Part shown: positions 6,043 to 29,740 of the stretch, in pieces
Position numbering within the stretch: the stretch's first letter is position 1
How the letters are laid out: every line of letters begins with the position of its first letter
From: Octadecabacter algicola
GTDB lineage: Bacteria > Pseudomonadota > Alphaproteobacteria > Rhodobacterales > Rhodobacteraceae
DNA: 64,000 bases
Assembly: GCF_021532625.1 (NCBI RefSeq)
Contig: NZ_JAKGAR010000002.1
Location: 496,001-560,000, forward strand
Direction of reading: 5' to 3'
Translations under genes and position numbers: made by a program
Notes under the pieces: generated by a model
The model's input: the letters and a program-made list of their open reading frames with translations, nothing else
What the model was told of the DNA's origin: nothing
Databases searched by the model: none

Positions 6043-6043
6043 C

Positions 6044-7915: not shown

Positions 7916-7992
7916 AGCGGCGCCTCCACGAAATTGAGCATGACGCACAGCAAATCGCTATTGACCTGCGCCCCCAATCAAAGATAGCCGTT

Positions 7993-8008
7993 TTGCAACC
8001 GGTTGCAA
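7993..8008. promoter_or_regulatory. LacI-type operator between divergent inositol operons
   Basis: TTGCAACCGGTTGCAA is a perfect 16-base palindrome with the central CG step typical of LacI-family operators. It lies between iolD (GTG 7915, leftward) and the Gfo/Idh gene (GTG 8035, rightward), where one bound repressor could block both promoters. A near-identical copy lies at 16285-16300, ahead of the operon that encodes the LacI-family repressor itself. These are the only two copies I found in the window. Confidence 0.82.
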
Positions 8009-8034
8009 CGGGATTCTTTTGGGAGAGAGAAAAA

Positions 8035-14395: not shown

Positions 14396-15334
14396 TTACT
14401 GGAGGAAGTCACCAATGTTGTCTGGTGTCACCAGCTTGAAAGGGATGAAGACAGTCTGGTCGACCTCTTCGCCGTTGATCAGCGCGATTGCTGTGTCGAT
14501 GGAACCAGCGCCCTGACCAGCAAGGTCTTGGAATACTGTTACGTCCATTTCACCCGCCTGCATGGAGAGCAGCGCATCAGAAGTCGCGTCAACACCACCA
14601 ACGACAACGTCGTCCATGGAAATGCCAGCAGCTTTCATTGCCTGAATAGCGCCCAGCGCCATTTCATCGTTGTTGCCGAAAACAGCGTCGAATGGCTCAC
14701 CGGAAGAAATCCAGTTTGTCATCAAATCGTTTGCTTCATCGCGAGACCAGTTCGCTGTCTGCTCATCGATCAAAGTAATGAAGTTGCACATGTCCATGCC
14801 GATAACGTCATGGAAATCCTTGGAGCGCTGAACCGCAGCTTGGTTAGAAAGCTGACCCATCAACATGTACGCAGTCGCGCCACCGGATTTGCCCTCTGCA
14901 CGAAGCTGACGACACATCTGGAATGCGGCCAAAGTACCGGATTCGATTTCGTTGGATGCCACAAATGCCTGACCTTCTGGCAGTGTGTCCATGTTGACTG
15001 GCTGACGATTGACGTAAACGAGTGGTACGCCTGCAGCCGCTGCAGCGTTGGACATCGCTTCTGTTGCGTTTGTATCAACTGCGTTCACGATGATTGCGTC
15101 GACGCCAGATGCGATGAAGTTGTTGATCTGGTCGAGCTGCTTTGCAACGTCGTCTGTCGCATCTTCGATCTGCAAAGATACGCCGTCCAGCATTTCTTCG
15201 TGAGCAGTCATACCGTTACGCATAACGGTCAGGCCGTTGTCGTCAAAACGCGCAACGGATACACCGATTTGCTGCGCCATAGCCGATGTTCCCATCAGCA
15301 TTGTCAGGCCTGCGGCCATAAATAGCTTGTTCAT
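14396..15334 (-). CDS. Periplasmic sugar-binding protein (inositol), RbsB family
   Basis: A 312-residue type-1 periplasmic binding protein. A signal peptide (MNKLFMAAGLTMLMGTSAMA) is followed by the mature start QQIGVSVARFDDN. The fold signatures are a DxxxxQxxQI-like stretch (DVAKQLDQINNF), VNAVDTN, and FGNNDEMALGAIQAM near residue 215. It delivers substrate to the RbsC-type permease. Start at 15334 with GGGAGGAAA upstream. Placement after the operator and among iol genes points to myo-inositol, as in the ibpA-iatA-iatP system of Caulobacter, which is the model I rely on for this inference. Confidence 0.9.
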   Translation of the reverse strand: MNKLFMAAGLTMLMGTSAMAQQIGVSVARFDDNGLTVMRNGMTAHEEMLDGVSLQIEDATDDVAKQLDQINNFIASGVDAIIVNAVDTNATEAMSNAAAAAGVPLVYVNRQPVNMDTLPEGQAFVASNEIESGTLAAFQMCRQLRAEGKSGGATAYMLMGQLSNQAAVQRSKDFHDVIGMDMCNFITLIDEQTANWSRDEANDLMTNWISSGEPFDAVFGNNDEMALGAIQAMKAAGISMDDVVVGGVDATSDALLSMQAGEMDVTVFQDLAGQGAGSIDTAIALINGEEVDQTVFIPFKLVTPDNIGDFLQ

Positions 15335-15415
15335 TGGTTTCCTCCCAAAAATCGTGCCCGGCACACGGTTCATTTCCCGGGGCCCTTATTAAAAGGGCTT
15401 TCTCTTCACAGCTTC

Positions 15416-16234
15416 TCAGGCCTCCCTTTCGGCGATTTGAGCAGTTATGAATTTCGTTGACTCAGCGATGTTTGCGACTGGGTTTTCCAGCGCATGAACG
15501 TCGGCTGAAAAAGCCTCAAAAGAATACGGACCGTCGTAGCCTTGCGCCCGCAGTTCAGCGATTTGCGCAATATTTCCGAGGCGATCTTGGTCATCGACCA
15601 GCCCCCGCATTTCGTCCGTCATGTCGTCAAATTTCACGTGGGGGTCAGACACCCCGGAGATATGAACAATCTTGGTCTCTGCGGCGAAAACATCAGTTTC
15701 GCCCGACAACGCGTGGTGAAACGTATCGTGGATAAGCGCGAAACAAGTCGGGTTGTGTATTTCATCCAACACTGCACGCACATCTGCTTTCAGTCGCAAA
15801 CTGGCGTTGGGGAACCCTAACGGTTCGATCAATCCTGTGATGCCGGAGTTTTCAAACAACGGCAGCAACGCGGTCAGTGTGTCGCGCAATTGGTCCCGTT
15901 GGACTTGACGCGGTACTGGGCTGTCCTGGATGCGCGGGATGAGCGCGATGGCCTCTGCGCCGCAGTTTTTTGCAATATCGATCAAGGCGCGAACCTTGTC
16001 GTGGCTTTGTGTGTCGTTATCGTTGAAGCCATAGACTTCAGCCAAAGCCAGAATGCGTAATGCTCTGCTGGCAGCGGCGTCGCGTATCACTTCCGGCGCA
16101 TTATTATCAAACAAAGGCGTCGCCAAGTCATTGCGCAGCTCAATCCCGACGCATCCCATTTCAACAGCCGCATCCATAGTCGCGAGCGTCGCGGCGTGAG
16201 GCATAGTTTGATGGTTTAGACCGATAGGAAACAT
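15416..16234 (-). CDS. TIM-barrel sugar isomerase/epimerase (IolI-like)
   Basis: A 272-residue protein of the AP-endonuclease-2/sugar isomerase fold. Metal-ligand positions are visible as E in LIEPLGF, D-x-x-H-H in LIHDTFHHA, H in VHISGVSDPH, and E near the end in YSFEAFS. In Bacillus, IolI interconverts inososes (2-keto-myo-inositol and 1-keto-D-chiro-inositol); a similar role would let D-chiro-inositol enter the pathway here. It is the first gene of the transporter operon, right after the second operator. Family is clear, exact reaction inferred. Confidence 0.82.
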   Translation of the reverse strand: MFPIGLNHQTMPHAATLATMDAAVEMGCVGIELRNDLATPLFDNNAPEVIRDAAASRALRILALAEVYGFNDNDTQSHDKVRALIDIAKNCGAEAIALIPRIQDSPVPRQVQRDQLRDTLTALLPLFENSGITGLIEPLGFPNASLRLKADVRAVLDEIHNPTCFALIHDTFHHALSGETDVFAAETKIVHISGVSDPHVKFDDMTDEMRGLVDDQDRLGNIAQIAELRAQGYDGPYSFEAFSADVHALENPVANIAESTKFITAQIAEREA

Positions 16235-16284
16235 TCAGTGGCAGCCCTTTGATTCGGGACCCAGTTTAGTTCGGATGGAAATTT

Positions 16285-16300
16285 TTGCAACCGGTTGCAG
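16285..16300. promoter_or_regulatory. LacI-type operator before the inositol transport operon
   Basis: TTGCAACCGGTTGCAG, with a perfect 14-base palindromic core (16286-16299), 51 bases before the leftward isomerase gene. It differs from the 7993-8008 site at one end base only. The operon it controls includes the LacI-family repressor gene, implying autoregulation. The remaining 16301-16509 holds no gene I can support. Confidence 0.82.
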
Positions 16301-16509
16301 TTTTGGGGCGGGACGGCCGAAAAAGCGTTCCGAAAAGGAGACGAAAGGGCCCCGGTAGTGGCAGGTGCCGTCAGCAGGCGCAGCCGATCACAGTATTGAC
16401 GGTACCAAATGGGGCTAAATGTTAAGAGAGTATTCTTTGTGCGTTGCCTCCAAAACGGAGCCGACGATGTGACAAACTGCGGGCGCCATGGATCGGATTG
16501 TGGCTGGGT

Positions 16510-16905
16510 TTAGGCCCCAAAGATGGCAGTTGCTTCGACTTCGACCTTAAATTCTTCGCGAGTGAAGCCGCATACGATCAAGAGGGTTGATGCGGGTCGA
16601 ACAGTGACCCCGTCGAGCCATGCATCACGAACCGCCATATAGTCTGCGAAATAAGAACGATCGGTGACGAAAGCGCTGAGACGAATAACATCTTTGGGGC
16701 CGCACCCTGCGTCTTTTAGGATGGCGGAAATGTTAGCAAAGCACTGTTCGGCCTGTGCGCGCACGTCGTCGGCACAGCTGCCATCCGGCGCAAGCCCGAG
16801 CTGCCCTGACGTGACTACTAAATGGCTGACTGGCCCGGTTTTGATCCCGTGGTTGTAGTCGCCAAACGGTGGGGCAATTGTGATCGGGTTTATGGCCTGT
16901 GTCAT
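16510..16905 (-). CDS. RidA (YjgF/YER057c/UK114) family protein
   Basis: A 131-residue Rid-family protein. It has the family C-terminal block with R in TVRPASTLL, which corresponds to the key arginine of RidA, and E in VEVEATAIF. RidA-type deaminases hydrolyse reactive enamine/imine intermediates; other subgroups act on acylated carbamates or ring-opened intermediates in pyrimidine and aromatic breakdown. It diverges from the ABC/deaminase/oxygenase operon starting at 17157, so a role in that pathway is plausible. Confidence 0.85.
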   Translation of the reverse strand: MTQAINPITIAPPFGDYNHGIKTGPVSHLVVTSGQLGLAPDGSCADDVRAQAEQCFANISAILKDAGCGPKDVIRLSAFVTDRSYFADYMAVRDAWLDGVTVRPASTLLIVCGFTREEFKVEVEATAIFGA

Positions 16906-17156
16906 GATTTGGGCGCCTCTAGGTTTGACTTAGAATCGGCATGTGATGCCATTTTGGGCGGATACAAGCATAGGGTGTGCCTCTAAACACAGCACTCCTA
17001 AGTAGATGGCGCTCGTTTTTTGCACAGTGAAGGGCGAAGCGCTCAAGAATTAACCTATTCTTAGTATCTCATTACAAAAGCAGTCCTTTGGTTCGTGCGA
17101 TCCCGCGCGACGCCTCGTTAGCTTTATCCGTGACCTTTCACCCATGGAGATTTTCA
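16906..17156. promoter_or_regulatory. Divergent promoter region of the unknown catabolic operon
   Basis: A 251-base non-coding region between ridA (leftward) and the binding-protein gene (rightward), no doubt holding both promoters. I can point to one small inverted repeat, GGCAT-GTG-ATGCC at 16938-16950, near the ridA side. There is no adjacent regulator gene. The reading frame that runs into the binding protein from 17088 is not thought to be translated before 17157. Confidence 0.4.
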
Positions 17157-18152
17157 ATGACCCTTAAGCAAACAATCACTGTCGCTTCGCTGGCAGCTAT
17201 GACAGCAAGCAGCGCGTTCGCTCAAGACCTGACGCCCGTTACATTTGGGACCAACTGGCTTGCCCAAGCCGAACACGGTGGTTTCTATCAGGCCGTGGCT
17301 GACGGCACCTATGCTGAATGCGGCTTGGACGTAACAATCGTGTCTGGTGGCCCGCAGGTTAACAATCGTGCGCTGATGTTGGCTGGTCGCATTGACTACC
17401 ACATGGGCGGCGATCTGTTGCAGGCGTTCAACGCTGCCAAGGAGGGCATCCCTGTAGTTGCCGTAATGGCCACGTTCCAAAAACACCCGCAGGTCATCCT
17501 TTCACACCCTGGCCAAGCTGAGACTTTTGAAGACTTGCGCGACCTAACGCTTTTGATCGGCGACAACGGTTTCACGTCCTATTACCAATGGATGATGGCT
17601 GAGTATGGCTTCACGGCTGAACAACGCGAGCCGTACACGTTTAACCCAGCGCCTTTCGTAGCCGATGAAACCAAAGCCATGCAGGGCTACCTTTCGTCCG
17701 AACCCTATGTGATCGAAAACGAAGCGGGTTTCGTCCCAGACACGTTTCTGATCGCTGATGCCGGGTATTCGACCTACGCCACAACAGTTGAAACCATGGC
17801 CGACACCATTGCTGAAAACCCCGAGCAAGTTGCCTGTTTCGTCGACGGGTCGATCACTGGCTGGTACAACTACCTATACAACGATCACTCCGCCGCGGAT
17901 GCCATGATCATGGAGGCCAACCCTGACATGACCGCAGACAAGATCGAGTATGCTATCTCGAAAATGTTGTCTGAAGGTATCGTGGACAGCGGCGACGCAC
18001 TTGAGCTCGGGATCGGTGCCATGACCGATGAGAAGATCGAAGACTTCTACAACAAGATGGTCGCAGCTGGCGTGATTGAGGCTGGTCTGGATTACTCCGC
18101 TACCTACACAACTCAGTTCGTGAACGCGATGCTGGGCATGGACCTTAGATAA
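17157..18152 (+). CDS. ABC transporter substrate-binding protein, NMT1/THI5 type
   Basis: A 331-residue periplasmic protein with a signal peptide (MTLKQTITVASLAAMTASSAFA). The mature N-terminus VTFGTNWLAQAEHGGFYQA is typical of the NMT1/THI5-like group (ThiY-type pyrimidine, nitrate and sulfonate-related binding proteins). The conserved G-x-x-Y/F-QA and WMMAEYGF stretches are present. This group commonly binds flat nitrogen heterocycles such as hydroxymethylpyrimidine derivatives. Start at 17157 with GGAG 8 bases upstream; the longer frame has no signal peptide. It leads an operon containing a CodA-like deaminase, so the ligand is probably a nitrogen-containing ring compound; this is inference. 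Confidence 0.88.
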   Translation: MTLKQTITVASLAAMTASSAFAQDLTPVTFGTNWLAQAEHGGFYQAVADGTYAECGLDVTIVSGGPQVNNRALMLAGRIDYHMGGDLLQAFNAAKEGIPVVAVMATFQKHPQVILSHPGQAETFEDLRDLTLLIGDNGFTSYYQWMMAEYGFTAEQREPYTFNPAPFVADETKAMQGYLSSEPYVIENEAGFVPDTFLIADAGYSTYATTVETMADTIAENPEQVACFVDGSITGWYNYLYNDHSAADAMIMEANPDMTADKIEYAISKMLSEGIVDSGDALELGIGAMTDEKIEDFYNKMVAAGVIEAGLDYSATYTTQFVNAMLGMDLR

Positions 18153-18176
18153 GTCGTTGAACTGAAGATGATGCGA

Positions 18177-18202
18177 GCAGGGGCGGGATTTTTCGCCCTT
18201 GC
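18177..18202 (+). terminator. Intercistronic hairpin after the THI5-type binding-protein gene
   Basis: Bases 18177-18185 pair with 18194-18202 (9 base pairs, one G-U) around an 8-base T-rich loop, between the binding-protein stop and the ATPase start. It probably sets a higher level of binding-protein mRNA than of downstream genes rather than ending the operon. Confidence 0.6.
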
Positions 18203-18223
18203 TACCGATCGAGAAAGCAAGAC

Positions 18224-19030
18224 ATGTCAGACCATTCCATAATACCGCCGATGGGGCAGCGCGACGAACTGCTTAGCATGACCGACGTCGACAAGGTCTT
18301 TAATGGCAACGTCGAAGCGCTCAAGAATTTGAACCTGACCGTCAATCAGGGTGATTTTATTTCGCTCCTCGGACCATCTGGTTGCGGCAAATCCACAGCA
18401 CTGCGCCTTATTGCGGGGCTGATGCGTCAGACCTCTGGGCAGATAAAATGGAACGGTGGTTTGAACGAAGGTGACCTTGGTGTCGTGTTTCAAGAACCCA
18501 CCTTGATGCCGTGGGCGACAGTAGAGCAGAACGTCTGGCTGCCACACCGCTTGCGCGGCAAGTCCCTTGACGATGTGCGCGGCGATATCATGTGGGCGCT
18601 CAAGATGGTGGGGCTTGAAAAGTTCCAAAAATCCTACCCGCGCGAACTGTCTGGCGGCATGAAAATGCGGGTGTCAATTGCCCGTGCCCTCGTGACACAG
18701 CCACGGTTGATCCTGATGGATGAGCCCTTTGCCGCGCTCGATGAAATCACGCGTCACAAGCTGAATAACGACCTTCTGATGCTGCGCGACAAGCTTAAGT
18801 GCACCGTCATTTTCGTGACCCATTCCGTTTTTGAATCGGTTTTCCTGTCTGACCGCATCGTCGTGATGGCCGCGCGTCCGGGACGGGTTTCGGCAGAAGT
18901 TTCTGTTGATGCTCCTTATCCGCGAACAGAAGAGTTCCGCACGTCGGCGCAATACGCCGAACTGTGCCGCAAGGCGTCGGATGCCTTGCATGGCGCGATG
19001 AACCAACATGGCGAAAGGGCATCCGCATGA
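18224..19030 (+). CDS. ABC transporter ATP-binding protein, SsuB/TauB/ThiZ type
   Basis: A 268-residue ATPase with Walker [10 protein letters not shown] (about residues 50-58), Q-loop in VFQEPTLMPW, signature LSGGMKMR, Walker B LILMDEPFAALD and the switch His in FVTHSVFES. These features place it in the nitrate/sulfonate/taurine/pyrimidine importer ATPase group. It pairs with the permease that overlaps its stop by 4 bases. The Shine-Dalgarno match (GAGAAAG) is weak. Confidence 0.9.
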   Translation: MSDHSIIPPMGQRDELLSMTDVDKVFNGNVEALKNLNLTVNQGDFISLLGPSGCGKSTALRLIAGLMRQTSGQIKWNGGLNEGDLGVVFQEPTLMPWATVEQNVWLPHRLRGKSLDDVRGDIMWALKMVGLEKFQKSYPRELSGGMKMRVSIARALVTQPRLILMDEPFAALDEITRHKLNNDLLMLRDKLKCTVIFVTHSVFESVFLSDRIVVMAARPGRVSAEVSVDAPYPRTEEFRTSAQYAELCRKASDALHGAMNQHGERASA

Positions 19031-19887
19031 GCGCCCCAGAGATGCACGCAGCACAGGCCCCTGTGGTGGATCAAGAAGAACTACAGCATGCCCGCGCGCA
19101 GCGCCGCGACAAAATCGCGAAGTGGTCGTTGCCTATTCTGATGCTCGCGCTTGCGATTTTCCTATGGGACAGGATTGTCGTCTGGAACGATATTCCGCAC
19201 TACATCCTACCGGGGCCGGGACTTGTTATTCGGACCTTGATTGAAGATTGGGGCATGTTGTCGGATGCGCTTTGGGTCACTCTCAAGATTACGCTGATGG
19301 CCCTTGGTGTGGCCGTTGTTGGGGGTGTCGGCTTGGCCGTTCTGTTCACCCAATCGCGCTACTTTGAAATGGCATTTTACCCTTTTGCGGTCATCTTGCA
19401 GGTAACGCCTGTGGTGTCGATTGCTCCGTTGATCTTCATCTATGTCGACAGCCGCCTTGCGGGGCTATTGTTGTGTGCGTGGATCGTGGCGTTTTTTCCA
19501 ATCCTGTCCAACACAACGCTTGGTCTGAACTCGACGGACCATAACTTGCGCGACCTTTATAAGATTTATGGGGCGACCCGCTGGCAACGCTTGCGGTATC
19601 TGCAACTGCCGACCGCACTGCCATATTTCCTTGGCGGTTTGCGGATTGCGGGGGGGCTATCCCTGATCGGGGCCGTTGTTGCCGAGTACGTTGCAGGTAC
19701 CGGCGGGATCGGATCTGGCCTTGCGTTTCGTATCTTGGAGGCAGGCTATCGTCTCAATATTCCGCGTATGTTTGCGGCACTCATTCTGATCGCGGCAACA
19801 GGTGTGGTGATCTTCACTTTTGCTTCGTTACTTAGTCACGCGCTTTTGCACAAATGGCATGAAAGCGCCATCAAACGGGAGAATTAA
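19027..19887 (+). CDS. ABC transporter permease, SsuC/ThiX type
   Basis: A 286-residue inner-membrane permease of the BPD-transport family with about six hydrophobic helices and the EAA-type loop (IYGATRWQRLRYLQLPTALP, near residue 185). Start at 19027 overlaps the ATPase stop (ATGA); the frame extends further upstream but inside the ATPase gene. Forms the import channel for the compound handled by the following enzymes. Confidence 0.9.
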   Translation: MSAPEMHAAQAPVVDQEELQHARAQRRDKIAKWSLPILMLALAIFLWDRIVVWNDIPHYILPGPGLVIRTLIEDWGMLSDALWVTLKITLMALGVAVVGGVGLAVLFTQSRYFEMAFYPFAVILQVTPVVSIAPLIFIYVDSRLAGLLLCAWIVAFFPILSNTTLGLNSTDHNLRDLYKIYGATRWQRLRYLQLPTALPYFLGGLRIAGGLSLIGAVVAEYVAGTGGIGSGLAFRILEAGYRLNIPRMFAALILIAATGVVIFTFASLLSHALLHKWHESAIKREN

Positions 19888-21167
19888 TGGAATTTTGCGT
19901 TTTGCCCAGCGGCGCGAAGACCCTTCGAAATGTTACTGTCCCAGCCTGCTTGATCGGGCGAGACGGTGACCTAATAACCACAGACCTGACCATCACAGAT
20001 GGTTTGATTACATCAACGGACGCTGGGCAACCGGCCGAAACTGTAATCAATATGAAAGGCGCAATTGCTCTGCCGTGCTTTGTCGATATGCATACGCATC
20101 TGGACAAGGGGCACATTTGGCCGCGTGCGTCCAACCCGGACGGGTCCTTTATGGGAGCGTTGACGACCGTCCATGCAGACCACGTGAACTGGACAGCTGA
20201 CGACGTCGAAGCGCGGATGGATTTCGCCCTTCGGTGTGCCTTTGCCCACGGCACAAAGGCTATCCGTACTCATATCGATAGCGCCGATGATCTTGCAGCA
20301 TCGTCTTTTGGCGTGGTCGCAAAGTTGCAGGAACAGTGGGCCGGTAAGATCACCCTTCAGGCGTCCTGCCTCGTGGCGATTGATCGCGTGTTTCGCGATG
20401 ACGGTATCTTTCCCGATATTGCTAAAATCGTTGCGGATACTGGAAACATCCTAGGCGCTGTGACTTATCCGGTGCCTGACCTTCAGGACCGATTGAACGA
20501 CTTTTTCCATTTCGCTCAAACCTATGATCTGGACGTTGATTTCCACGTCGATGAAACGAACGATCCGACCTCTGATACCCTGCGCACGATTGCTGAAACG
20601 GTTCTGGCTTTGGGCTTCAAGAACAAGGTCACCGTTGGCCACTGCTGTTCGATTTCCGTCATGCCCGACAATGTCGCTGCTGAGATAATCGCGTTGGTCG
20701 CCAAGGCTGGTCTGCATGTCGTGTCTTTGCCGATGTGCAACATGTACCTGCAAGACCGCGAGGCAGGGCGCACCCCGCGCTGGCGCGGCGTAACGATGGC
20801 TCATGAGCTTAAGGCGGCGGGCGTCAACGTGTCATTTGCGTCCGACAACACCCGCGACCCGTTCTACGCCTACGGTGATCTCGATATGATCGAAGTCATG
20901 CGTGAAGCTACGCGTATTTGTCATCTAGATCACGGGCTGACCGATTGGCCCGCGTCATTTGTGACCAATCCTGCCGCGGCCTGCGGTTTCGATGACACAA
21001 GCCTGAATGTCGGTGCGCCCGCTGACCTGATCCTATGTAACGCGCGATCCTGGACCGAGTTTTTCTCGCGCCCACAATCGGACCGCATCGTGTTGCGAAA
21101 CGGTGACCCGATCGACCGCACACTGCCTTCTTATTCCGAACTCGACCCGATTGAGAGCAAGCCATGA
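19887..21167 (+). CDS. Amidohydrolase, cytosine deaminase (CodA) like
   Basis: A 426-residue amidohydrolase-superfamily enzyme. Metal-ligand motifs are H-x-H in MHTHLDKG (about residue 68), a barrel His in HVDET, H in VGHCCS, and the Asp in ASDNTRDPFYAYGD, which is close to the CodA/isopropylammelide hydrolase pattern. Such enzymes remove amino groups from, or open, pyrimidine- and triazine-type rings. Its ATG overlaps the permease stop (TAATG), so import and deamination are coupled. The natural substrate is not known; cytosine itself is possible but would not need the oxygenase and FAD oxidase that follow. Confidence 0.85.
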   Translation: MEFCVLPSGAKTLRNVTVPACLIGRDGDLITTDLTITDGLITSTDAGQPAETVINMKGAIALPCFVDMHTHLDKGHIWPRASNPDGSFMGALTTVHADHVNWTADDVEARMDFALRCAFAHGTKAIRTHIDSADDLAASSFGVVAKLQEQWAGKITLQASCLVAIDRVFRDDGIFPDIAKIVADTGNILGAVTYPVPDLQDRLNDFFHFAQTYDLDVDFHVDETNDPTSDTLRTIAETVLALGFKNKVTVGHCCSISVMPDNVAAEIIALVAKAGLHVVSLPMCNMYLQDREAGRTPRWRGVTMAHELKAAGVNVSFASDNTRDPFYAYGDLDMIEVMREATRICHLDHGLTDWPASFVTNPAAACGFDDTSLNVGAPADLILCNARSWTEFFSRPQSDRIVLRNGDPIDRTLPSYSELDPIESKP

Positions 21168-22570
21168 CCCCTAATATTGCCGAAGCCAAAGCCAAGTTGT
21201 CCCATCTCGATATGGAGGCAAACCCAGCCACCGTGCGCAACAAATCACGCGATTTCTTTTGGTACTCACCGGTTCTCAAGGATGCGATGGATCACCTTGA
21301 GGCGGATTTCGTCATCAACGCGAAGTCCGAAGACGAGATCATTGAAATCTTGCGGGTTTGTTATGCCCACGATGTCCCAGTCACCATGCGCGGCGGCGGA
21401 ACGGGGAACTACGGTCAAGCGATGCCGCTTGCGGGTGGCTGCGTGATCCACGTCACCAAGATGAACAAGATTAAGGAGATCGGCGCGGGTTTTGTCGTGG
21501 TTGAACCGGGCGCGATCATCAAAGAGCTCGACGATGAACTGAAGGAAAAAAGTGGACAAGAATTGCGCATGTTCCCGTCCACCTATTCGCAAGCCACAAT
21601 CGGCGGCTTTATCGCTGGTGGGTCTGGCGGTGTCGGGTCGGCAAACTGGGGCGCGTTGCGTGATATCGGCAATATCAAACGCCTGCGTGTCATCACAATG
21701 GAAGCCGAGCCGCGCGTTCTGGAATTCACCGGTGAGGAATTGCACCGTGTCTCTCATGCTTATGGCACCAACGGTATCATCACAGAATTGGAACTGCCCC
21801 TCGCGCCAGCTTACGAGTGGACAGAACTGTTTGTGCGCTTCGATACCTTCCGCGCAGCGACCGAGTTTGCAGGGGCAGTTACCGCGGAGCCGGGCATCCT
21901 GATTAAGCTTGCGTCGGTTTATGCCGCACCCATCGCGCACGCGTATTTCCAGCGCGTAAAGCCCCATGTCACAGAGGACGACCATCTTGTTGGGTTGATG
22001 GCAGCGCCGCACAACATGGACGGCTTGTTGACTTTGCTGGAACGCTTTGAAGGCAGCGAAGTAATTTATCGCTCAGATGACAACACATGGGAACGCAACC
22101 CTGGTCCGATGTATGAATTCGGCTGGAACCACACAACGTTGCGGGCCATGAAGTTTAACAAAGGCCTGACGTATCTGCAGGTGCGTTATGGCGGCGACAT
22201 CGAAAAGGTCATGGCCGCCTATGAGGCCTTTAAGGGCAAACTGCATATGCACCTAGAAGTCATGCGCGAAGAGGCGGGGCTGTCGTTTGCAGGTCTGCCG
22301 ATTGTAGAACCGATGGACAAAGATGCGCTTGATGAATTGGTCGCCGAGCATGAGGCCATGGACTGCATGATCTTCAACCCTCACCGCTACACACTCGAAG
22401 AAGGCGGGCGGCAAGCCACGGACGCACGTCAGCTTGATTTCAAGCGCGAGTCTGACCCCAAGGGCCTTTTGAACCCGGGTAAAATGATTGCATGGGACGA
22501 GCCTGACTTCGATTACGCTGATATGTATTCCTACAAGGGCATCCGCCCAAAACCTGAGGCTGCCGAATGA
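21164..22570 (+). CDS. FAD-linked oxidase (PCMH-type FAD-binding)
   Basis: A 468-residue flavoprotein of the GlcD/FAD_binding_4 family. The PCMH-type FAD domain shows VTMRGGGTGNYGQAMP (about residues 75-90) and GGFIAGGSGGVGSANWG (about 147-163). The C-terminal part ends in NPGKMIAWD, as in D-lactate/glycolate oxidase relatives. It should oxidise an alcohol, hydroxy acid or ring carbon using FAD. ATGA overlaps with both neighbours tie it firmly to the deaminase and the flavodoxin-fold genes. Substrate unknown. Confidence 0.85.
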   Translation: MTPNIAEAKAKLSHLDMEANPATVRNKSRDFFWYSPVLKDAMDHLEADFVINAKSEDEIIEILRVCYAHDVPVTMRGGGTGNYGQAMPLAGGCVIHVTKMNKIKEIGAGFVVVEPGAIIKELDDELKEKSGQELRMFPSTYSQATIGGFIAGGSGGVGSANWGALRDIGNIKRLRVITMEAEPRVLEFTGEELHRVSHAYGTNGIITELELPLAPAYEWTELFVRFDTFRAATEFAGAVTAEPGILIKLASVYAAPIAHAYFQRVKPHVTEDDHLVGLMAAPHNMDGLLTLLERFEGSEVIYRSDDNTWERNPGPMYEFGWNHTTLRAMKFNKGLTYLQVRYGGDIEKVMAAYEAFKGKLHMHLEVMREEAGLSFAGLPIVEPMDKDALDELVAEHEAMDCMIFNPHRYTLEEGGRQATDARQLDFKRESDPKGLLNPGKMIAWDEPDFDYADMYSYKGIRPKPEAAE

Positions 22571-23166
22571 TCAGCCCCTCAAGCAAAGGGCGGGTTATGG
22601 TTCTGTTCGCCCACCCGTGCCCCGAAAGCTTTAATGCGGCGGTGCATAATGTGGTCGTCCAAACCCTGACTAAATCGGGTTGGGAGGTCGACGATTGCGA
22701 CCTCAACAAAGAGGGATTTCAACCTGTCCTGACCGAGGTCGAACGGCGTGGTTATCACGAAGAGCCTGAAAACATAGAACCCGTGCGGCCTTATGTTGAA
22801 CGCGTCAAAGCAGCGGATGCCATTGTGATGGTCTTTCCCGTGTGGAACTTTGGGTACCCTGCGATCCTCAAGGGGTTTTTGGACCGCGTTTTCCTCCCCG
22901 GGATTTCGTTCAAACTTATCGATGGAAAGGTACGCCCAGGACTCACCAATATCAAAAGGCTCTATGCGTGCACGACCTACGGTGGGACCCGTTGGCGGGC
23001 GATCCAGAACGCCGATCCACCACGTAAGACGGTAACACGGGCGGTTTGGTATGCCTGCGGGATGCCTAAGAAGAAATACATTGGTCTTTACGATATGAAC
23101 CGCAACACCGAGGCGAAGCTAACTGCGCATCTTGAACGCGTCCGTCGTGAGATGGAGGCATTTTAG
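22567..23166 (+). CDS. Flavodoxin-fold NAD(P)H oxidoreductase, first of a pair
   Basis: A 199-residue protein of the NQO1/KefF (flavodoxin_2) family. The FMN/FAD-phosphate stretch FAHPCPESFNAA is near residues 15-26 and the family signature PVWNFGYPAILKGFLDRV near 92-110. These enzymes transfer two electrons from NAD(P)H to quinones, azo groups or a partner oxidoreductase. ATGA overlap with the FAD oxidase suggests it may pass electrons to or from it. The next gene is a paralogue of the same length. Confidence 0.85.
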   Translation: MISPSSKGRVMVLFAHPCPESFNAAVHNVVVQTLTKSGWEVDDCDLNKEGFQPVLTEVERRGYHEEPENIEPVRPYVERVKAADAIVMVFPVWNFGYPAILKGFLDRVFLPGISFKLIDGKVRPGLTNIKRLYACTTYGGTRWRAIQNADPPRKTVTRAVWYACGMPKKKYIGLYDMNRNTEAKLTAHLERVRREMEAF

Positions 23167-23169
23167 GCA

Positions 23170-23769
23170 ATGAAGGCACTCGTTGTTTACAGTCACCCCC
23201 GTGAAGGGTCCTTTAATGCGGCGATCCGTGATTTGGTGATTTCGCGGCTGGAAGAACACGGCGTCGAGTACCGTCTTCGTGATCTTTACGCCGAAGGGTT
23301 CGATCCAACGATGTCAGCCCACGATCACGAGGTTTACGAAACCGTGCCAGAAAACCGCGCGCTTGTTGATCGCGATTGCACCGATCTGGAATGGTGCGAT
23401 GCGTTGATCTTTGTCTACCCGACATGGTGGTATGGTATGCCCGCGATGCTTAAGGGCTGGTTGGACCGCGTAATGGTGCCTGGTGTGTCATTTATCCTGC
23501 CTGAAACAGTTGGTGGGGACATCAAACCCGGGCTGACCCATATCAACAAGTTGGGCGTTTTCACGACCTGTGGTGCGTCTCGTTTGTTGACGTTTTTCGT
23601 CGGCTCACCGGGCAAACGCACTCTTATGCGCGGCGTCCGTCTGTTGCTGGCCAAACGCGCCAAAACAAAGTTCGCGGCTCATTTCTTGATGGATAGTTCC
23701 ACGCCTGAAAGCCGCGCCGCGCATCTTGATCTGGTCAAAACCCGTCTCGATAAGCTTATAACCGCCTAA
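23170..23769 (+). CDS. Flavodoxin-fold NAD(P)H oxidoreductase, second of a pair
   Basis: A 199-residue paralogue of the preceding protein, with the matching motifs VYSHPREGSFNAA and PTWWYGMPAMLKGWLDRV. The two products clearly share a family but differ enough to suggest an old duplication with divided roles or a heterodimer. It starts 3 bases after the previous stop. Likely a NAD(P)H-dependent reductase in the same pathway; partner and substrate unknown. Confidence 0.85.
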   Translation: MKALVVYSHPREGSFNAAIRDLVISRLEEHGVEYRLRDLYAEGFDPTMSAHDHEVYETVPENRALVDRDCTDLEWCDALIFVYPTWWYGMPAMLKGWLDRVMVPGVSFILPETVGGDIKPGLTHINKLGVFTTCGASRLLTFFVGSPGKRTLMRGVRLLLAKRAKTKFAAHFLMDSSTPESRAAHLDLVKTRLDKLITA

Positions 23770-23786
23770 ACCAGAGGACCCGTGAC

Positions 23787-24713
23787 ATGGATATTCCTGT
23801 ATTGGATTGGAACCGCTTCACCAGTGGAGATGACGCTGAGGGCTTTGCTGCTGACCTTGGGAAAGCGTGCCGTGAGACAGGTTTCTTTGTTCTAACTGGG
23901 CACGGGATTTCCAAAGATCTGATCGCCGATGTCTTTACCGTCGCGGATCGTTTCTTTGCGCTGCCACCGGAAGAAAAAGCCGAAATCGCCATTTCCAAGA
24001 ACCCGCACAATCGCGGTTGGGCGCAACAAGGCAGTGAAGCCCTCGATGAGGCGTCGGGGCTCAAGGATCGCAAGGAGGCCTTTAACGTCGGGCTTGATTT
24101 GCTAGCCGATGACCCGCGTGTAATCGCGGGCGAGCCGTTTCGCGGCGTTAACGTATGGCCGGACCTCGAGGGGTTCCAGAAAATCATGCTCGACTATTAC
24201 GAACGCGCGCTCAATCTTGGCAGGGGATTACACCGCGCGTTTGAGGCTGACCTTGGCTTGCCGCAAGAGTATTTTGAGCCGCACTTCACGGAACCGATGG
24301 CGACTTTGCGCGTGCTGTCCTATCCCGCCGCGCCGGATGGCGAAGGGATCGGGGCAGGGGCGCATACCGACTACGGATCGGTAACGTTGCTCATGACGGA
24401 CGGTGTCGCTGGGCTCCAAGTCAAGCCACGCGGTGGGGATTGGATGGACGTGCCCCACATTAAAGGGGCTTTTGTCGTGAACATCGGCGATTGCCTGATG
24501 CGGTGGTCAAATGACCTCTATGTCTCGACCCCGCACCGCGTTTTGCCCCCGAAAACCGCCCGCCGATCTATTGCATTTTTCCTTGATCCCAATCCCGAGA
24601 GCATCATCACTGCATTGCCGGGAACGGGAACGGCCAAGTATGCCCCGATCACCGGAGCCGATTATCTGCGATCCCGCCTTGATGCGACCTACACACCGGA
24701 GCCGACCTCATGA
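23787..24713 (+). CDS. Fe(II)/2-oxoglutarate oxygenase, isopenicillin-N-synthase family
   Basis: A 308-residue oxygenase with the DIOX_N region at the start (MDIPVLDWNRF) and the 2OG-FeII domain. The iron triad is H-x-D in GAHTDYGSV (about residue 192) and H in STPHRV (about 250), with R-x-S (RRSIAFF, about 260) for 2-oxoglutarate. Bacterial members hydroxylate or oxidise small molecules including pyrimidines. AGAGGA lies upstream of the ATG. It overlaps the creatininase gene by 4 bases. It probably catalyses an oxidative step on the imported compound. Confidence 0.87.
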   Translation: MDIPVLDWNRFTSGDDAEGFAADLGKACRETGFFVLTGHGISKDLIADVFTVADRFFALPPEEKAEIAISKNPHNRGWAQQGSEALDEASGLKDRKEAFNVGLDLLADDPRVIAGEPFRGVNVWPDLEGFQKIMLDYYERALNLGRGLHRAFEADLGLPQEYFEPHFTEPMATLRVLSYPAAPDGEGIGAGAHTDYGSVTLLMTDGVAGLQVKPRGGDWMDVPHIKGAFVVNIGDCLMRWSNDLYVSTPHRVLPPKTARRSIAFFLDPNPESIITALPGTGTAKYAPITGADYLRSRLDATYTPEPTS

Positions 24714-25510
24714 GACGACTTGATTGGTCTGAGTATCGAACAACTGAATTTTCCGATTTCGACCCAGAGAAAACCATCGTCATCCTGCCCACTGCGGCGA
24801 TTGAACAGCATGGACCGCACCTTCCTGTTGGGGTGGACACTTTCATCAACGAAGGCATGTTGGCGCAGCTGCGCGCGACCCTTCCTAATGATATCACAGT
24901 GCTGATCCTGCCGGTTCAGGCGGTTGGTAAGTCCAACGAACATATCCACGCCAAAGGCACGCTGACATATACCGCCAAGACTGCCCTTGATGCGTGGACA
25001 GAAATTGGGCTGTCGGTGGCCCGTGCAGGCCTTAAGAAGATGGTTATCGTCAATTCACATGGCGGAAATCTGGATCTGATCTCTATTCTGGGGCGTGAGT
25101 TGCGAGTGCATGCTGGCATGATGGTCGTGAAATGCCAGTGGGGCAATTTCGGCAAACCTGAGGGCATGTTCTCTGAACAGGAAAACGCTTTCGGCATTCA
25201 TGGCGGCGACTATGAAACCTCGCTCATGTTGCATTTCAAGCCGCATCTTGTGGACATGACTCAAGCCAAAGATTTCCGGTCGAGCGCAGAGACCGCGCCT
25301 ATTTCGCCGATTGGTCCGGTGAACTTGGCGTGGGTGTCTAAGGACCTAAATGAGGCGGGCACCGTCGGTGAAGCGCACCTTGCTACAGCTCAAAAGGGCG
25401 CAACCGTTTGTGAGCTTCAAGTCGCGGGTTTTGTTGAGATGCTGGGGCAACTGCGTGACCTGCCGACCGACGGATATGCGCCAACACTTCCGACGATCAA
25501 TGGCAAGTAA
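24710..25510 (+). CDS. Creatininase-family amidohydrolase
   Basis: A 266-residue protein with all family motifs: EQHGPHLPVGVD (about residues 28-39), NSHGGNLDL (about 114-122) and HGGDYETSLML (about 162-172), which supply the metal ligands. Creatininase-type enzymes hydrolyse cyclic amides (creatinine, formamidopyrimidines) and a relative, IolN, opens an inosose ring. Here, after a deaminase and two oxidising enzymes, ring opening of a lactam or hydantoin-like intermediate is the natural guess. Last gene of the rightward operon; it converges with the flavoprotein gene 18 bases away. Confidence 0.87.
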   Translation: MRRLDWSEYRTTEFSDFDPEKTIVILPTAAIEQHGPHLPVGVDTFINEGMLAQLRATLPNDITVLILPVQAVGKSNEHIHAKGTLTYTAKTALDAWTEIGLSVARAGLKKMVIVNSHGGNLDLISILGRELRVHAGMMVVKCQWGNFGKPEGMFSEQENAFGIHGGDYETSLMLHFKPHLVDMTQAKDFRSSAETAPISPIGPVNLAWVSKDLNEAGTVGEAHLATAQKGATVCELQVAGFVEMLGQLRDLPTDGYAPTLPTINGK

Positions 25511-25528
25511 CCTAATCAAACCTCGCCG

Positions 25529-27178
25529 TTAACCTGCGCTGCGCCCTGCCGCCCGGCCAGAGAAGATGCAGCCGCCCAAGAATGTGCCCTCAAGCGAGTT
25601 GTATCCGTGGTAACCGCCCCCACCAAAACCTGCGGCTTCGCCTGCAGCGTAAAGACCGGCAATCGGTTTGCCTGCCGCGTCGATCATTTGACTGTCTAGG
25701 TTGGTTTGCAAACCGCCCAAGGTCTTGCGCGTGATGAGGTTTAGACGAACAGCGATCAGCGGGCCATTTTCCCCATCAAGGAATTTATGCGGTTTGGCGG
25801 TGCGGATGAGTTTGTCGCCTCGATAATGGCGCGCCGCTTGAATGGCGGTGATCTGTGGGTCCTTGGAAAACGGGTTGTCCACTTGGGCATCGCGGGCTTC
25901 GATCTGGGCACGTAGGTGTGCTTCGTCAATCAGGGCATCCTCGGTCAACCCGTTCATGCCTTTGACGAGATCGGCCAGAGTATCGGCAACGACGAAATCC
26001 GCACCGTGCTCCTTAAAGGCTTCAACCGGAGCAGTGGCAGATTTGCCTGAGAGGATACGTTCTTTAAGAACCTTGGACCATTTGGCCGATGTCAGATCTG
26101 GGTTCTGTTCTGAACCAGACAGCGCGAATTCTTTTTTGATCACCTTTTGGGTCAGGACGAACCAGCTGTAATCATATCCCGTATCTAGGATCGCCTTGAA
26201 GGTGCCATTGGTGTCAAAGCCGGGCATGGCAGGCGGCGCAAACCGGTTGCCGCGTGCATCGAACCACATGGACGACGGCCCGGGTAAAATGCGGATACCA
26301 TGGGCTGGCCAGATCGGATCCCAGTTTTTGACACCTTCGGTATAAAACCAAAGCCTATCGCGGTTGATTACGTGGCCACCTGCGTCCTCCGCAATGCCGA
26401 TCATGCGGCCGTCTACATGCGCTGGCACGCCAGACAGCATGTTTTTAGGGGCGGGGCCAAGGCGCTCGGTTGGCCAGACTTTGCGGATGAGGTCAAAGTT
26501 GCCCCCGATACCACCAGAGGCGACGATCACTGCATCTGCATCGACGCGGAACTCTCCGACAATGTCCCGATTGGTTTGCGCACCTTGCTGTGCGTCGTCG
26601 GGGGCCAATGTGGTGCCAGTGACGCCAACAGCCGCCCCGTTTTGCATTTCCAAACGATCAACTTGATGACGATACAGATAGGTCAGGCGACCTGCTGCGG
26701 CATGTTCATTGCAGCGTCGGATGAAGTGTTCAAGAACACCTGGGCCAGTACCCCAGGTGATGTGGAAACGCGGCACGGAATTGCCATGCCCCATCGCGTC
26801 TGATCCGCCACGTTCGGCCCAACCTACAACTGGAAACCAACGTAGGCCCATCTTGTGCAGCCACGGGCGCATTTCACCAGCGGCAAAGTCCAGATAGGCG
26901 GAGGCCCATTGGCGGGGGTAATCATCCTCGGGTCGGTCAAACTGCGCCGAGCCCATCCAGTCGTTCAACGCCAGATCGTGGCTGTCTTTGATGCCCATTC
27001 GCCGCTGTTCGGGCGTGTCGATCATGAACAACCCGCCAAGGGACCAATGCGCCTGACCGCCTAGGTTTTGGGGGCCTTCTTGGTCCACAATCACGACCTG
27101 TTTGCCGCGATCCCCAAGTTCAGCAGCGGCAGCTAGACCTGATAGGCCCCCACCGACGATTACAACATCTGTTTTCAT
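25529..27178 (-). CDS. KsdD-like FAD-dependent dehydrogenase
   Basis: A 549-residue flavoprotein of the fumarate reductase/ketosteroid dehydrogenase group. The N-terminal GGGLSGLAAA (residues 8-17) binds the FAD ADP part. A GGQAHWSLGGL block follows, and the C-terminal GLYAAGEAAGFGGGGYHGYNSLEGT completes the FAD site in the form seen in this group. It should introduce or reduce a carbon-carbon double bond. It overlaps the upstream BASS transporter gene by 4 bases, giving a transporter/dehydrogenase pair. Substrate unknown. Confidence 0.83.
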   Translation of the reverse strand: MKTDVVIVGGGLSGLAAAAELGDRGKQVVIVDQEGPQNLGGQAHWSLGGLFMIDTPEQRRMGIKDSHDLALNDWMGSAQFDRPEDDYPRQWASAYLDFAAGEMRPWLHKMGLRWFPVVGWAERGGSDAMGHGNSVPRFHITWGTGPGVLEHFIRRCNEHAAAGRLTYLYRHQVDRLEMQNGAAVGVTGTTLAPDDAQQGAQTNRDIVGEFRVDADAVIVASGGIGGNFDLIRKVWPTERLGPAPKNMLSGVPAHVDGRMIGIAEDAGGHVINRDRLWFYTEGVKNWDPIWPAHGIRILPGPSSMWFDARGNRFAPPAMPGFDTNGTFKAILDTGYDYSWFVLTQKVIKKEFALSGSEQNPDLTSAKWSKVLKERILSGKSATAPVEAFKEHGADFVVADTLADLVKGMNGLTEDALIDEAHLRAQIEARDAQVDNPFSKDPQITAIQAARHYRGDKLIRTAKPHKFLDGENGPLIAVRLNLITRKTLGGLQTNLDSQMIDAAGKPIAGLYAAGEAAGFGGGGYHGYNSLEGTFLGGCIFSGRAAGRSAG

Positions 27179-28038
27179 GATTTACGGCTCCGAAGCCAAA
27201 GGACGAATGGAATTGCGGTGACATACATGATGACACCGTAAAGTGCGGACGGCAGCCCTATAGTGGGGATGCCCCCTGATACACCAACGATAAGCGGGGC
27301 GAGGGTGATACCAAGGCTGCCGTTCTGAATGCCGACCTCGATGGATATTGTTTTGCGTTCAGCCCAAGTCAGTCCCAAGGCCCCCGCGATCAACAACCCA
27401 GCAAGCATCGTCACCACGTTCAACGACAACAGTGCTGGCCCCAGCTTAGCTACGTTTTCGGTAAGCAGAGTCCAGTTCGACGCGATGGCGGCAAGGATGA
27501 TCAGGACGAACAGGGCCGAGGCAAGTTTGATCAAAACCGGTTCGATACGATCCGCAAGTGGCGTCGCGAAATGACGCAGCACCATACCCAAAATAACCGG
27601 TAGCATGGTCAGCAAAAACATAGCCAAGGCCAGCGTCGTTACGGAAATATCGGGGGCATCTTCCCCCATGAAATGCACGACCGCCCAACCTATCATTACG
27701 GGTACAGTGAAAATAGACACCAAAGATATCAGGGCTGTCAGTGACACAGACAGGGCAACATCCCCCTTCGCAAGCCGCGTCACGACATTGGACGTCACGC
27801 CGCCCGGACAGAGTGCAATGAGCATCACACCTGTCGCCAGTGCACCGGTCAATCCAAACGTGAGGATAACGAGATAGGCCACAACCGGGAGCAACACGAG
27901 CTGACATAACGCCCCAACGGCAAAGACCCATCCCCGTTCCGCCACGCGACGAAAGTCAGCCATCGTTAGCCCGATACCGAGACTGAACATGATGATCGCC
28001 AGAGAAAGCGGCAAAACAACGTTTACAAGAATATCCAT
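27175..28038 (-). CDS. BASS-family sodium-dependent transporter
   Basis: A 287-residue membrane protein of the bile acid:Na+ symporter (SBF) superfamily with about nine hydrophobic segments. Typical stretches are CPGGVTSNVVTRLAKGDVALS (sodium-site region, near residue 80) and EVGIQNGSLGITLA (near 230). BASS members move organic acids, steroid-like acids and 2-oxo acids. GGGAGGGG precedes the ATG at 28038; the longer frame has no support. The downstream FAD dehydrogenase, overlapping by 4 bases, presumably acts on what it carries. Confidence 0.88.
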   Translation of the reverse strand: MDILVNVVLPLSLAIIMFSLGIGLTMADFRRVAERGWVFAVGALCQLVLLPVVAYLVILTFGLTGALATGVMLIALCPGGVTSNVVTRLAKGDVALSVSLTALISLVSIFTVPVMIGWAVVHFMGEDAPDISVTTLALAMFLLTMLPVILGMVLRHFATPLADRIEPVLIKLASALFVLIILAAIASNWTLLTENVAKLGPALLSLNVVTMLAGLLIAGALGLTWAERKTISIEVGIQNGSLGITLAPLIVGVSGGIPTIGLPSALYGVIMYVTAIPFVLWLRSRKS

Positions 28039-28153
28039 GATCCCCTCCCAAGGCCGTAAGGCTGCAAGGCCACCACAGCGTAGGTGGTAAATCAAGGGAG
28101 AGGGTGGTGTTACGGCACGTTAAGGCCGCCGTAAAAGAAATTTTTGAAGGTTG

Positions 28154-29740
28154 TTAGGTCGCCTTCTTTAATTTCATCCACTGATCGAGGGCATCAATTT
28201 GATCGATGGTCATACGCAGCCCCAGTCGGGTCCGCCGCCATACGACGTCTGCAGCTTGCTGCGCGTATTCGTGATCCATGAGCCATTCGACCTCTTGCGC
28301 GGTCAACGTGGCGCCAAAAGGTTTCCCCAGATCAGCGGCCGAAGTGGCGTTGCCCAACAGGACGCGCGCGTCGGTGCCATAGGCCTTAATCAGCCGCTGC
28401 GCCCAAGCGGCATCCAAGAACGGATATTCCGTTCGAAGAGCCGCAATTAATGTCTCAACACCGTCGACGGGGAAGTCTCCGCCGGGGAGAGCTACGCCAG
28501 CGGTCCATTTTTCAGATGCCTTCGGGAAGTAGGGTTCGAATTTAGACAAGACATTTTCAGCCAGCTTGCGGAACGTTGTGATCTTACCGCCAAAGACGTT
28601 GACCACTGGTGCGCCGCCGTCTGCGTCGTTCAAAGACAAAACGTAGTCACGGGTCGCAGCGGTGGCTGATTTCGCACCATCGTCATAAAGTGGGCGAACA
28701 CCGGAATAACTCCAGACGATGTCATTTCTTGTGATTGGTTTCTCGAAATAATTGGACGCAAAGGCACAAAGGTAATCGGCTTCTGCGTCCGTGCAGTCTG
28801 GTTCATCAAATGCTGAACCGTGTTCCGCGTCGGTGGTGCCGATCAGGGTGAAATCCGTCTCGTAGGGGATTGCAAAGATGATGCGCCCGTCTTCCCCCTG
28901 AAAGAAGTAGGCCTTGTCATGATCAAACAGCCGCTTGGTGACGATATGGCTGCCGCGCACCAATCGCACGCCTTCCGAACTGGTTATGTCCAGCGATTGA
29001 TCAATCACATCACCAACCCACGGTCCGCTAGCATTAACGAGAGCTTTGGCCGTGACTTCGAAAGTGTTGCCCGTTTGGTGATCAAGTAACGATATTTTCC
29101 AGAGACCGTCGACCCGATCCGCGGTGATGACTTCTGTTCGCGTCATGATCTTCGCACCGCGGGCTTCGGCATCGCGCGCATTCAACACGACGAGCCGCGA
29201 GTCTTCTATCCAGCAGTCCGAATACTCGTAAGCCTTTTCGAACTTGTCTTGAAGCGGCAAGCCGGTGGCGTCGCTCCTTAGGTTTATTGAGCTTGTGCCG
29301 GGAAGGATTTGCCGCCCTCCAAGGGTGTCATAAAGGAACAACCCGAACCGAATAAGCCATGCAGGTCGGCGGCCTTTCATCCATGGCATAAAGGCGTTGA
29401 GAAGCTTGGACGTCGGCGTTTCGCCTTCAAAGCGCATGTCTCTATGGACGGGCAACACGAAGCGCATCGGCCAGCTAATATGCGGCATAGCTTTTAATAG
29501 GGTTTCACGTTCTTTTAGCGCCTTGGCAACGAGACCAAATTCAAAGAACTCAAGATAGCGCAAGCCACCATGAAACAGTTTTGTCGATGCAGATGAGGTC
29601 GCGGAAGCGAGGTCATTCATCTCAGCCAAGCCGACAGCCAGGCCCCGTCCGGCCGCGTCTCGTGCGATCCCGCATCCGTTGATGCCACCGCCAATGACAA
29701 AGAGGTCAAATGCGGGGAGGGTGTTGTTGGTGTCAGGCAT
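28154..29740 (-). CDS. glpD: Glycerol-3-phosphate dehydrogenase
   Basis: A 528-residue FAD enzyme of the GlpD/GlpA family that oxidises sn-glycerol-3-phosphate to dihydroxyacetone phosphate at the membrane, passing electrons to quinone. The N-terminal GGGINGCGIARDAAGRG (about residues 16-32) binds FAD. The ASSxSTKLFHGGLRYLE block and ALVNASGPWVGDVI near 235 are family marks. AGGAACG precedes the ATG. It diverges from a GlpR-type regulator across a region with several GlpR half-sites. No glpF, glpK or transporter gene is in this window. Confidence 0.93.
   Translation of the reverse strand: MPDTNNTLPAFDLFVIGGGINGCGIARDAAGRGLAVGLAEMNDLASATSSASTKLFHGGLRYLEFFEFGLVAKALKERETLLKAMPHISWPMRFVLPVHRDMRFEGETPTSKLLNAFMPWMKGRRPAWLIRFGLFLYDTLGGRQILPGTSSINLRSDATGLPLQDKFEKAYEYSDCWIEDSRLVVLNARDAEARGAKIMTRTEVITADRVDGLWKISLLDHQTGNTFEVTAKALVNASGPWVGDVIDQSLDITSSEGVRLVRGSHIVTKRLFDHDKAYFFQGEDGRIIFAIPYETDFTLIGTTDAEHGSAFDEPDCTDAEADYLCAFASNYFEKPITRNDIVWSYSGVRPLYDDGAKSATAATRDYVLSLNDADGGAPVVNVFGGKITTFRKLAENVLSKFEPYFPKASEKWTAGVALPGGDFPVDGVETLIAALRTEYPFLDAAWAQRLIKAYGTDARVLLGNATSAADLGKPFGATLTAQEVEWLMDHEYAQQAADVVWRRTRLGLRMTIDQIDALDQWMKLKKAT

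Follow-up and report, generated by a model that had tools for sequence, protein, structure and literature searches.

We analysed a 64,000-nucleotide stretch of the Octadecabacter algicola genome (contig NZ_JAKGAR010000002.1, positions 496,001 to 560,000; hereafter the window), which carries a putative catabolic gene cluster made up of nine plus strand genes at window positions 17157-25510 and a divergent ridA gene at 16510-16905, as delineated from open reading frames (ORFs). The ten genes code for a RidA-family enzyme, an ATP-binding cassette (ABC) importer with its substrate-binding protein (SBP), and six further enzymes, among them a 2-oxoglutarate (2OG) oxygenase:

16510..16905, minus strand: RidA-family enamine/imine deaminase, divergent (PF01042, 82 bits)
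17157..18152, plus strand: THI5/NMT1-type periplasmic SBP (PF09084, 63.5 bits)
18224..19030, plus strand: ABC transporter ATPase, nitrate/taurine/sulfonate type (PF00005)
19027..19887, plus strand: ABC transporter permease (PF00528)
19887..21167, plus strand: amidohydrolase, proposed pterin deaminase (NCBIfam NF005759, 'cytosine deaminase', 594 bits)
21164..22570, plus strand: flavin oxygenase, FAD_binding_4 (VAO-like) family, orthologue of PDB 6v42/6v43 (Pfam and PDB match)
22567..23166, plus strand: NAD(P)H-dependent flavodoxin-fold reductase 1 (PF02525)
23170..23769, plus strand: NAD(P)H-dependent flavodoxin-fold reductase 2 (PF02525)
23787..24713, plus strand: 2OG/Fe(II) oxygenase, accessory gene (PF14226 and PF03171)
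24710..25510, plus strand: creatininase-family metallohydrolase (PF02633, 226 bits)

An original prediction, made from the letters of the DNA, had read the enzyme families from motifs, and every one of these assignments was borne out by Pfam above the cut-off. It had counted eight genes between 17157 and 25510, where nine are present, and had correctly described them as running in one direction: all nine are on the plus strand, with ridA on the minus strand diverging from the SBP gene across a 251 bp spacer. Its description of the junctions as mostly overlapping by 1-4 bases also holds (5 of 8), the other three being gaps of 71 bases (SBP-ATPase), 3 bases (reductase-reductase) and 17 bases (reductase-2OG oxygenase). 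The ATG starts at 17157 (SBP) and 19027 (permease) were chosen within longer TTG/GTG ORFs.

The flavin oxygenase matched PDB entries 6v42/6v43 over residues 4-461 of 468 in a PDB sequence search (E 4.9e-153), with the next-best match at E 4.6e-18, and 6v42 ranked first in a structure search conducted with a moderate-confidence predicted model (predicted local distance difference test score, pLDDT, 68). Judged by these comparisons, the window enzyme is an orthologue of the 6v42 protein, an entry released on 2020-12-02 under the title 'Crystal structure of the flavin oxygenase with cofactor bound involved in folate catabolism'. A search for the 6v42 sequence in 297 genomes from one family of the window's class returned matches at E 1e-150 in 104 of them, and among 18 genomes of one genus we identified a sequence 100% identical over 461 aa (G877:C1:2326037-2327419). 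The gene order around this identical gene (locus L099, screened by tblastn) comprises creatininase-family and ridA genes on the minus strand, followed on the plus strand by genes for the SBP, ATPase, permease, amidohydrolase, flavin oxygenase, reductase 1 and reductase 2. The two flavin enzymes are 51% identical and eight partner genes are common to the window and L099, whereas the 2OG oxygenase gene is present in the window and absent in L099, and the creatininase-family gene, which ends the plus strand operon of the window, lies in L099 on the opposite strand next to ridA. The system had been called unrecognised in the original prediction. This stands insofar as we found no open-access paper on the whole operon, in a search that covered neither subscription journals nor theses; it does not stand for the flavin enzyme, which has a solved orthologue labelled as folate catabolic and set in the same genes.

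At E 1e-80, homologs of the flavin enzyme were detected in 61 of 198 genomes sampled from the window's family and 32 of 398 sampled from its phylum, the window's own genome being included in both counts. Neighborhoods were compared at 72 loci, a hand-picked part of these matches and of those to the 6v42 sequence that comprised 40 loci, 12 named loci, 19 loci from 20 stretches (two of which were joined), and the window; the named loci were 12 of 22, since ten (L076-L085), with partial matches at 29-32%, were excluded from neighborhood counts. Close loci (n = 59) were those with a flavin enzyme at least 48% identical to the window's, and include the window itself and the nearly identical L064. 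A gene was scored as present if tblastn gave a match at E 1e-10 within 10 kb, a procedure whose counts could include an unrelated ABC gene and that misses genes past the end of a contig, such that some misses are near contig ends.

Among the close loci, the amidohydrolase was identified in 59 of 59, the SBP, ATPase and permease in 57 each, at least one flavodoxin-fold reductase in 58 (two in 45), RidA in 53, and the creatininase-family enzyme in 51. The full core, defined as all families except the 2OG oxygenase and with one reductase sufficing, was present in 48 of the 59. Because the gene order recurs in many genera, it is not a product of chance. Beyond the families of the cluster itself, a simple ORF clustering of the 72 loci found no family in more than 6 of them, and for this reason the module looks self-contained.

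The 2OG oxygenase differs from the other families in that it was found in only 21 of the 59 close loci, and is for that reason an accessory component, dispensable for the core. Among close loci it is confined to the window's family and named Roseobacter-type genera; these counts are from tblastn (24 loci, 21 close and 3 distant), which we used in place of ORF clustering (17 loci). The proposal of the original prediction that the substrate is oxidized twice is consequently doubtful as a core feature.

The cluster occurs in many Roseobacters and rhizobia. Plasmid p2 of Sulfitobacter pontiacus carries the full set of ten genes, ordered as in the window, plasmids of Palleronia and Pseudooceanicola algae carry the same order without the 2OG oxygenase gene, and pRL12 of Rhizobium leguminosarum (L120) carries a rearranged set with one reductase and a LysR gene. 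Xanthine-dehydrogenase-family genes border the pRL12 cluster at one end, and at the other a methyl-accepting chemotaxis protein gene lies next to ridA. Deaminase homologs (E 1e-60) were identified in 176 of 72,556 plasmid records, of which 144 are from Rhizobium; 81 of the 176 were typed as conjugative and 79 as non-mobilizable, and the deaminase neighbors were viewed in four annotated records. One further locus (L057) has two flavin oxygenase homologs in opposite orientation (48% and 39% identical to the window's), together with reductase, creatininase-family, RidA and importer genes.

The amidohydrolase passed the NCBIfam model NF005759 with 594.1 bits (cut-off 403), as did the amidohydrolase encoded next to the 6v42-identical gene in L099 (623.3 bits). 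The name of this model, cytosine deaminase, therefore covers the enzymes of this cluster and may mislead automatic annotation. Alignment with Escherichia coli CodA indicated that the metal site is kept, with H69, H71, H220, E223, H252 and D320 corresponding to CodA H61, H63, H214, E217, H246 and D313, and these six residues, along with N321, are invariant in 69 of 69 homologs, the window copy included. Two positions that we take to be substrate contacts in CodA, Gln156 and Asp314, are not kept. Q156 falls opposite a gap, the local alignment being uncertain at this point, and position 314 corresponds to N321. The wild-type residue at 314 is presumably Asp, the aligned CodA entry being a mutant with Ser at this position. 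Since Ser is likewise found there in 4r7w, another cytosine deaminase of the PDB, the change at position 314 is weak evidence when taken alone. The sequence fits a relative that would deaminate a larger 2-amino-4-oxo heterocycle; the predicted model of the enzyme is poor (pLDDT 59).

Pterin deaminases that act on folate are known from experiment. Those of Agrobacterium radiobacter (Arad3529) and Variovorax sp. F1 (PDA) are described as cyclic-amidine deaminases active on folate and, for the Variovorax enzyme, also on pteroate (PMC9513972). The reaction type is the same as that proposed here, a comparison made at the level of chemistry. In contrast to the window's system, the Variovorax enzyme (399 aa) is reported together with a carboxypeptidase G (PMC9513972).

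Evidence for the remaining enzymes is more general. The SBP had a sole PDB sequence match at E 0.001, which was weak (4nmy, E 5e-5), and the ATPase reached the cut-off of none of the 25 NCBIfam families displayed out of 188. The nearest PDB sequences to reductase 1 were the putative NADPH quinone oxidoreductase 3lcm and NQO2/NQO1, and those to the 2OG oxygenase were 9ovh and 6jyv, followed in third place by thymine dioxygenase 5c3p. The creatininase-family enzyme belongs to the same Pfam family as creatininase (TIGR04448; PDB 1q3k, 1j2t) but is far under the TIGR04448 cut-off (85.7 versus 235 bits) and has the motif NSHGGN where creatininase has NGHYEN, and creatinine degradation was rejected on these grounds. 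It matched models of creatininase, IolN, MftE and ArfB, all below cut-off, whose chemistry presumably includes the hydrolysis of cyclic amides and formamides among others. Residues E32, H34, D43, H117 and E169, to which we ascribe metal roles, are conserved in at least 95% of 63 homologs. RidA fell below the cut-off of TIGR00004 and far below that of the RutC model TIGR03610 (22.7 versus 169.1 bits), and the Rut pathway was rejected on the latter count.

Collectively, these observations suggest that the operon encodes the catabolism of pterins or of pteridines derived from folate, a reading to which we assign a probability of roughly three in four (0.77). The original prediction had proposed that a nitrogen heterocycle is imported, deaminated, oxidized and ring-opened, with RidA clearing up behind; the substrate class fits the evidence, while the likely substrates, pterin or folate, were absent from its list of candidates. 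We infer the substrate and the order of the reactions as follows. The THI5-type ABC importer would take up an oxidized pterin, from which the amidohydrolase, given its family and context, would strip the 2-amino group to yield a lumazine (2,4-dioxopteridine) and ammonia. The FAD enzyme, called an oxygenase after the PDB title, would then oxygenate the deaminated ring. Because VAO-like enzymes have no NAD(P)H binding of their own, one or both flavodoxin-fold reductases are proposed to reduce the flavin enzyme, passing on electrons from NAD(P)H. The creatininase-family metallohydrolase may open a cyclic amide or remove a formyl or amide group, after which RidA would hydrolyze an enamine or imine product. 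In many Roseobacter versions, the 2OG oxygenase might, more speculatively, broaden the substrate range or add one hydroxylation, for example on the 6-side chain.

Several observations weigh against this reading. The folate link is the title given by the PDB depositors; no open-access paper with an assay was found, and searches of the open-access literature returned nothing that mentions 6V42 and nothing that combines 6V43 and 'flavin'. NCBIfam names the window amidohydrolase a cytosine deaminase, it may not be an orthologue of Arad3529, and the Variovorax enzyme may belong to another subfamily. The only other genome of the window's genus in the family sample had no flavin enzyme match (E 1e-80), and at least one core gene is missing in 11 of the 59 close loci. 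No recurrent folate-cleaving carboxypeptidase or p-aminobenzoate gene was seen among the ORF families of the 72 loci, where families found in 4-6 loci are mostly unidentified and no dedicated search was made. Because none was seen, we lean toward free oxidized pterins, rather than intact folate, as the imported substrate. Lastly, among the 13 distant loci the creatininase-family enzyme was found in 13, the amidohydrolase in 11, the ATPase and permease in 10 each, the SBP and any reductase in 8 each, RidA in 6 and the 2OG oxygenase in 3, with the full core in 3 of 13, and these loci may act on something else.

Ten of the distant loci (L043, L060, L061, L062, L063, L112, L113, L116, L117 and L118) have flavin oxygenase homologs that are 37-44% identical to the window's, set in looser gene sets with creatininase-family genes, THI5-type or other importers, and other enzymes. 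These include an SBP_bac_5 importer and a TauD dioxygenase at L062, a 5'-nucleotidase-like protein at L116, and, at L118, a molybdenum hydroxylase (MoCoBD) roughly 5 kb away. Perhaps these ten loci represent sister pathways for other heterocycles.

We considered three other readings of the window operon. The one that survives best, although we regard it as improbable, is that the operon degrades a different fused or substituted N-heterocycle (a purine, isoguanine, a flavin or lumichrome-like compound, or a xenobiotic) and that the flavin oxygenase accepts pterins only incidentally. The company that relatives keep is in its favor, namely the TauD dioxygenase and the molybdenum hydroxylase at distant loci and the xanthine-dehydrogenase-family genes at pRL12, whereas nothing direct points to any such substrate and folate catabolism is the sole functional label found in the family. 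Slightly less probable again is degradation of the thiamine pyrimidine (hydroxymethylpyrimidine, HMP) or of a methylated pyrimidine, in which THI5-type uptake and CodA-like 4-deamination would come first, and the FAD enzyme and the 2OG enzyme, which resembles thymine hydroxylase, would then oxidize the hydroxymethyl or methyl group. Placement of the SBP in the NMT1/THI5 Pfam family, the CodA-type deaminase, and the rank of thymine dioxygenase among relatives of the 2OG enzyme would all agree with this. However, the 2OG gene, which would be needed there for methyl oxidation, was not found in 38 of the 59 close loci, CodA Gln156 has no aligned partner, and the flavin enzyme's orthologue is titled folate catabolic and is set in the same genes. 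An ordinary cytosine deaminase operon, as the passed NF005759 model would have it, is very unlikely and was rejected given the gap opposite Gln156 (in the uncertain part of the alignment) and the Asn at position 314 in all homologs, and given that cytosine use would require no oxygenase, no pair of reductases and no creatininase-family enzyme.

In the Rut pathway of uracil degradation, a flavin oxygenase, an NAD(P)H reductase, a hydrolase, a RidA-family enzyme and an importer are encoded in one operon. The window operon combines the same enzyme types with an importer and would follow a similar logic, but its oxygenase is of the FAD_binding_4 family and unrelated to the RutA type, its importer is of the ABC type, and its RidA is far under the RutC cut-off. 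Pteridine catabolism may be taken further, and here we are tentative, at somewhat less than even odds: the operon would encode a complete, hitherto undescribed, Rut-like route for mineralization of the pteridine ring, in which a VAO-like oxygenase, not one of the RutA type, activates the deaminated pterin for hydrolytic opening. In the same extended proposal, the distant clusters, whose flavin enzyme is 37-46% identical and whose partner oxidoreductases differ, would encode sister pathways that act on other fused heterocycles, and the 2OG oxygenase of Roseobacters would be an adaptation to side-chain pterins that phytoplankton release.

Screening of the surrounding DNA for regulatory features returned no Rfam family, known riboswitches included, at gathering score within 15000-28500. 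Across 16000-27400, promoter-like sites (4 versus a shuffle mean of 6.7) and terminator-like sites (9 versus 12.5) were both fewer than in shuffled sequence. Alignment of the ridA/SBP spacers of ten clusters (the window and nine relatives), inspected by eye, revealed no obvious long conserved operator. Immediately after the operon, a gene for an FAD_binding_2 flavoprotein overlaps one for a sodium/bile-acid-type symporter (25529-28041, minus strand), a pair found within 10 kb of the flavin oxygenase in 2 of the 59 close loci, these being the window and its near-copy L064. Upstream, at 5206-9138, genes for a thiamine-pyrophosphate enzyme and a phytanoyl-CoA dioxygenase-family (PhyH) protein stand beside one for a Gfo/Idh/MocA dehydrogenase; judged by sequence, the region appears to serve sugar or inositol catabolism. 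The molybdenum-hydroxylase domain PF02738 had 4 matches in the window's own genome and none within the window.

This kind of system has been touched before, through a deposited structure labelled folate catabolism and through known pterin deaminases, and is incompletely described; the window's version, with its 2OG oxygenase, is a new form of it. Cells release pterins and folate everywhere, and the study of Arad3529 reportedly proposed an undescribed pathway of pterin degradation. In the open-access literature, we found a single paper centered on bacterial pterin deamination and nothing on the steps that follow. Our results suggest that many proteins named cytosine deaminase after NF005759 may in fact be pterin deaminases. 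Most of the chemical steps are still proposals, with import and breakdown of pterins the most likely function of the operon. The association of a solved flavin oxygenase, in Roseobacters and rhizobia alike, with seven or eight partner genes that recur as a set makes the whole pathway testable in culturable strains.

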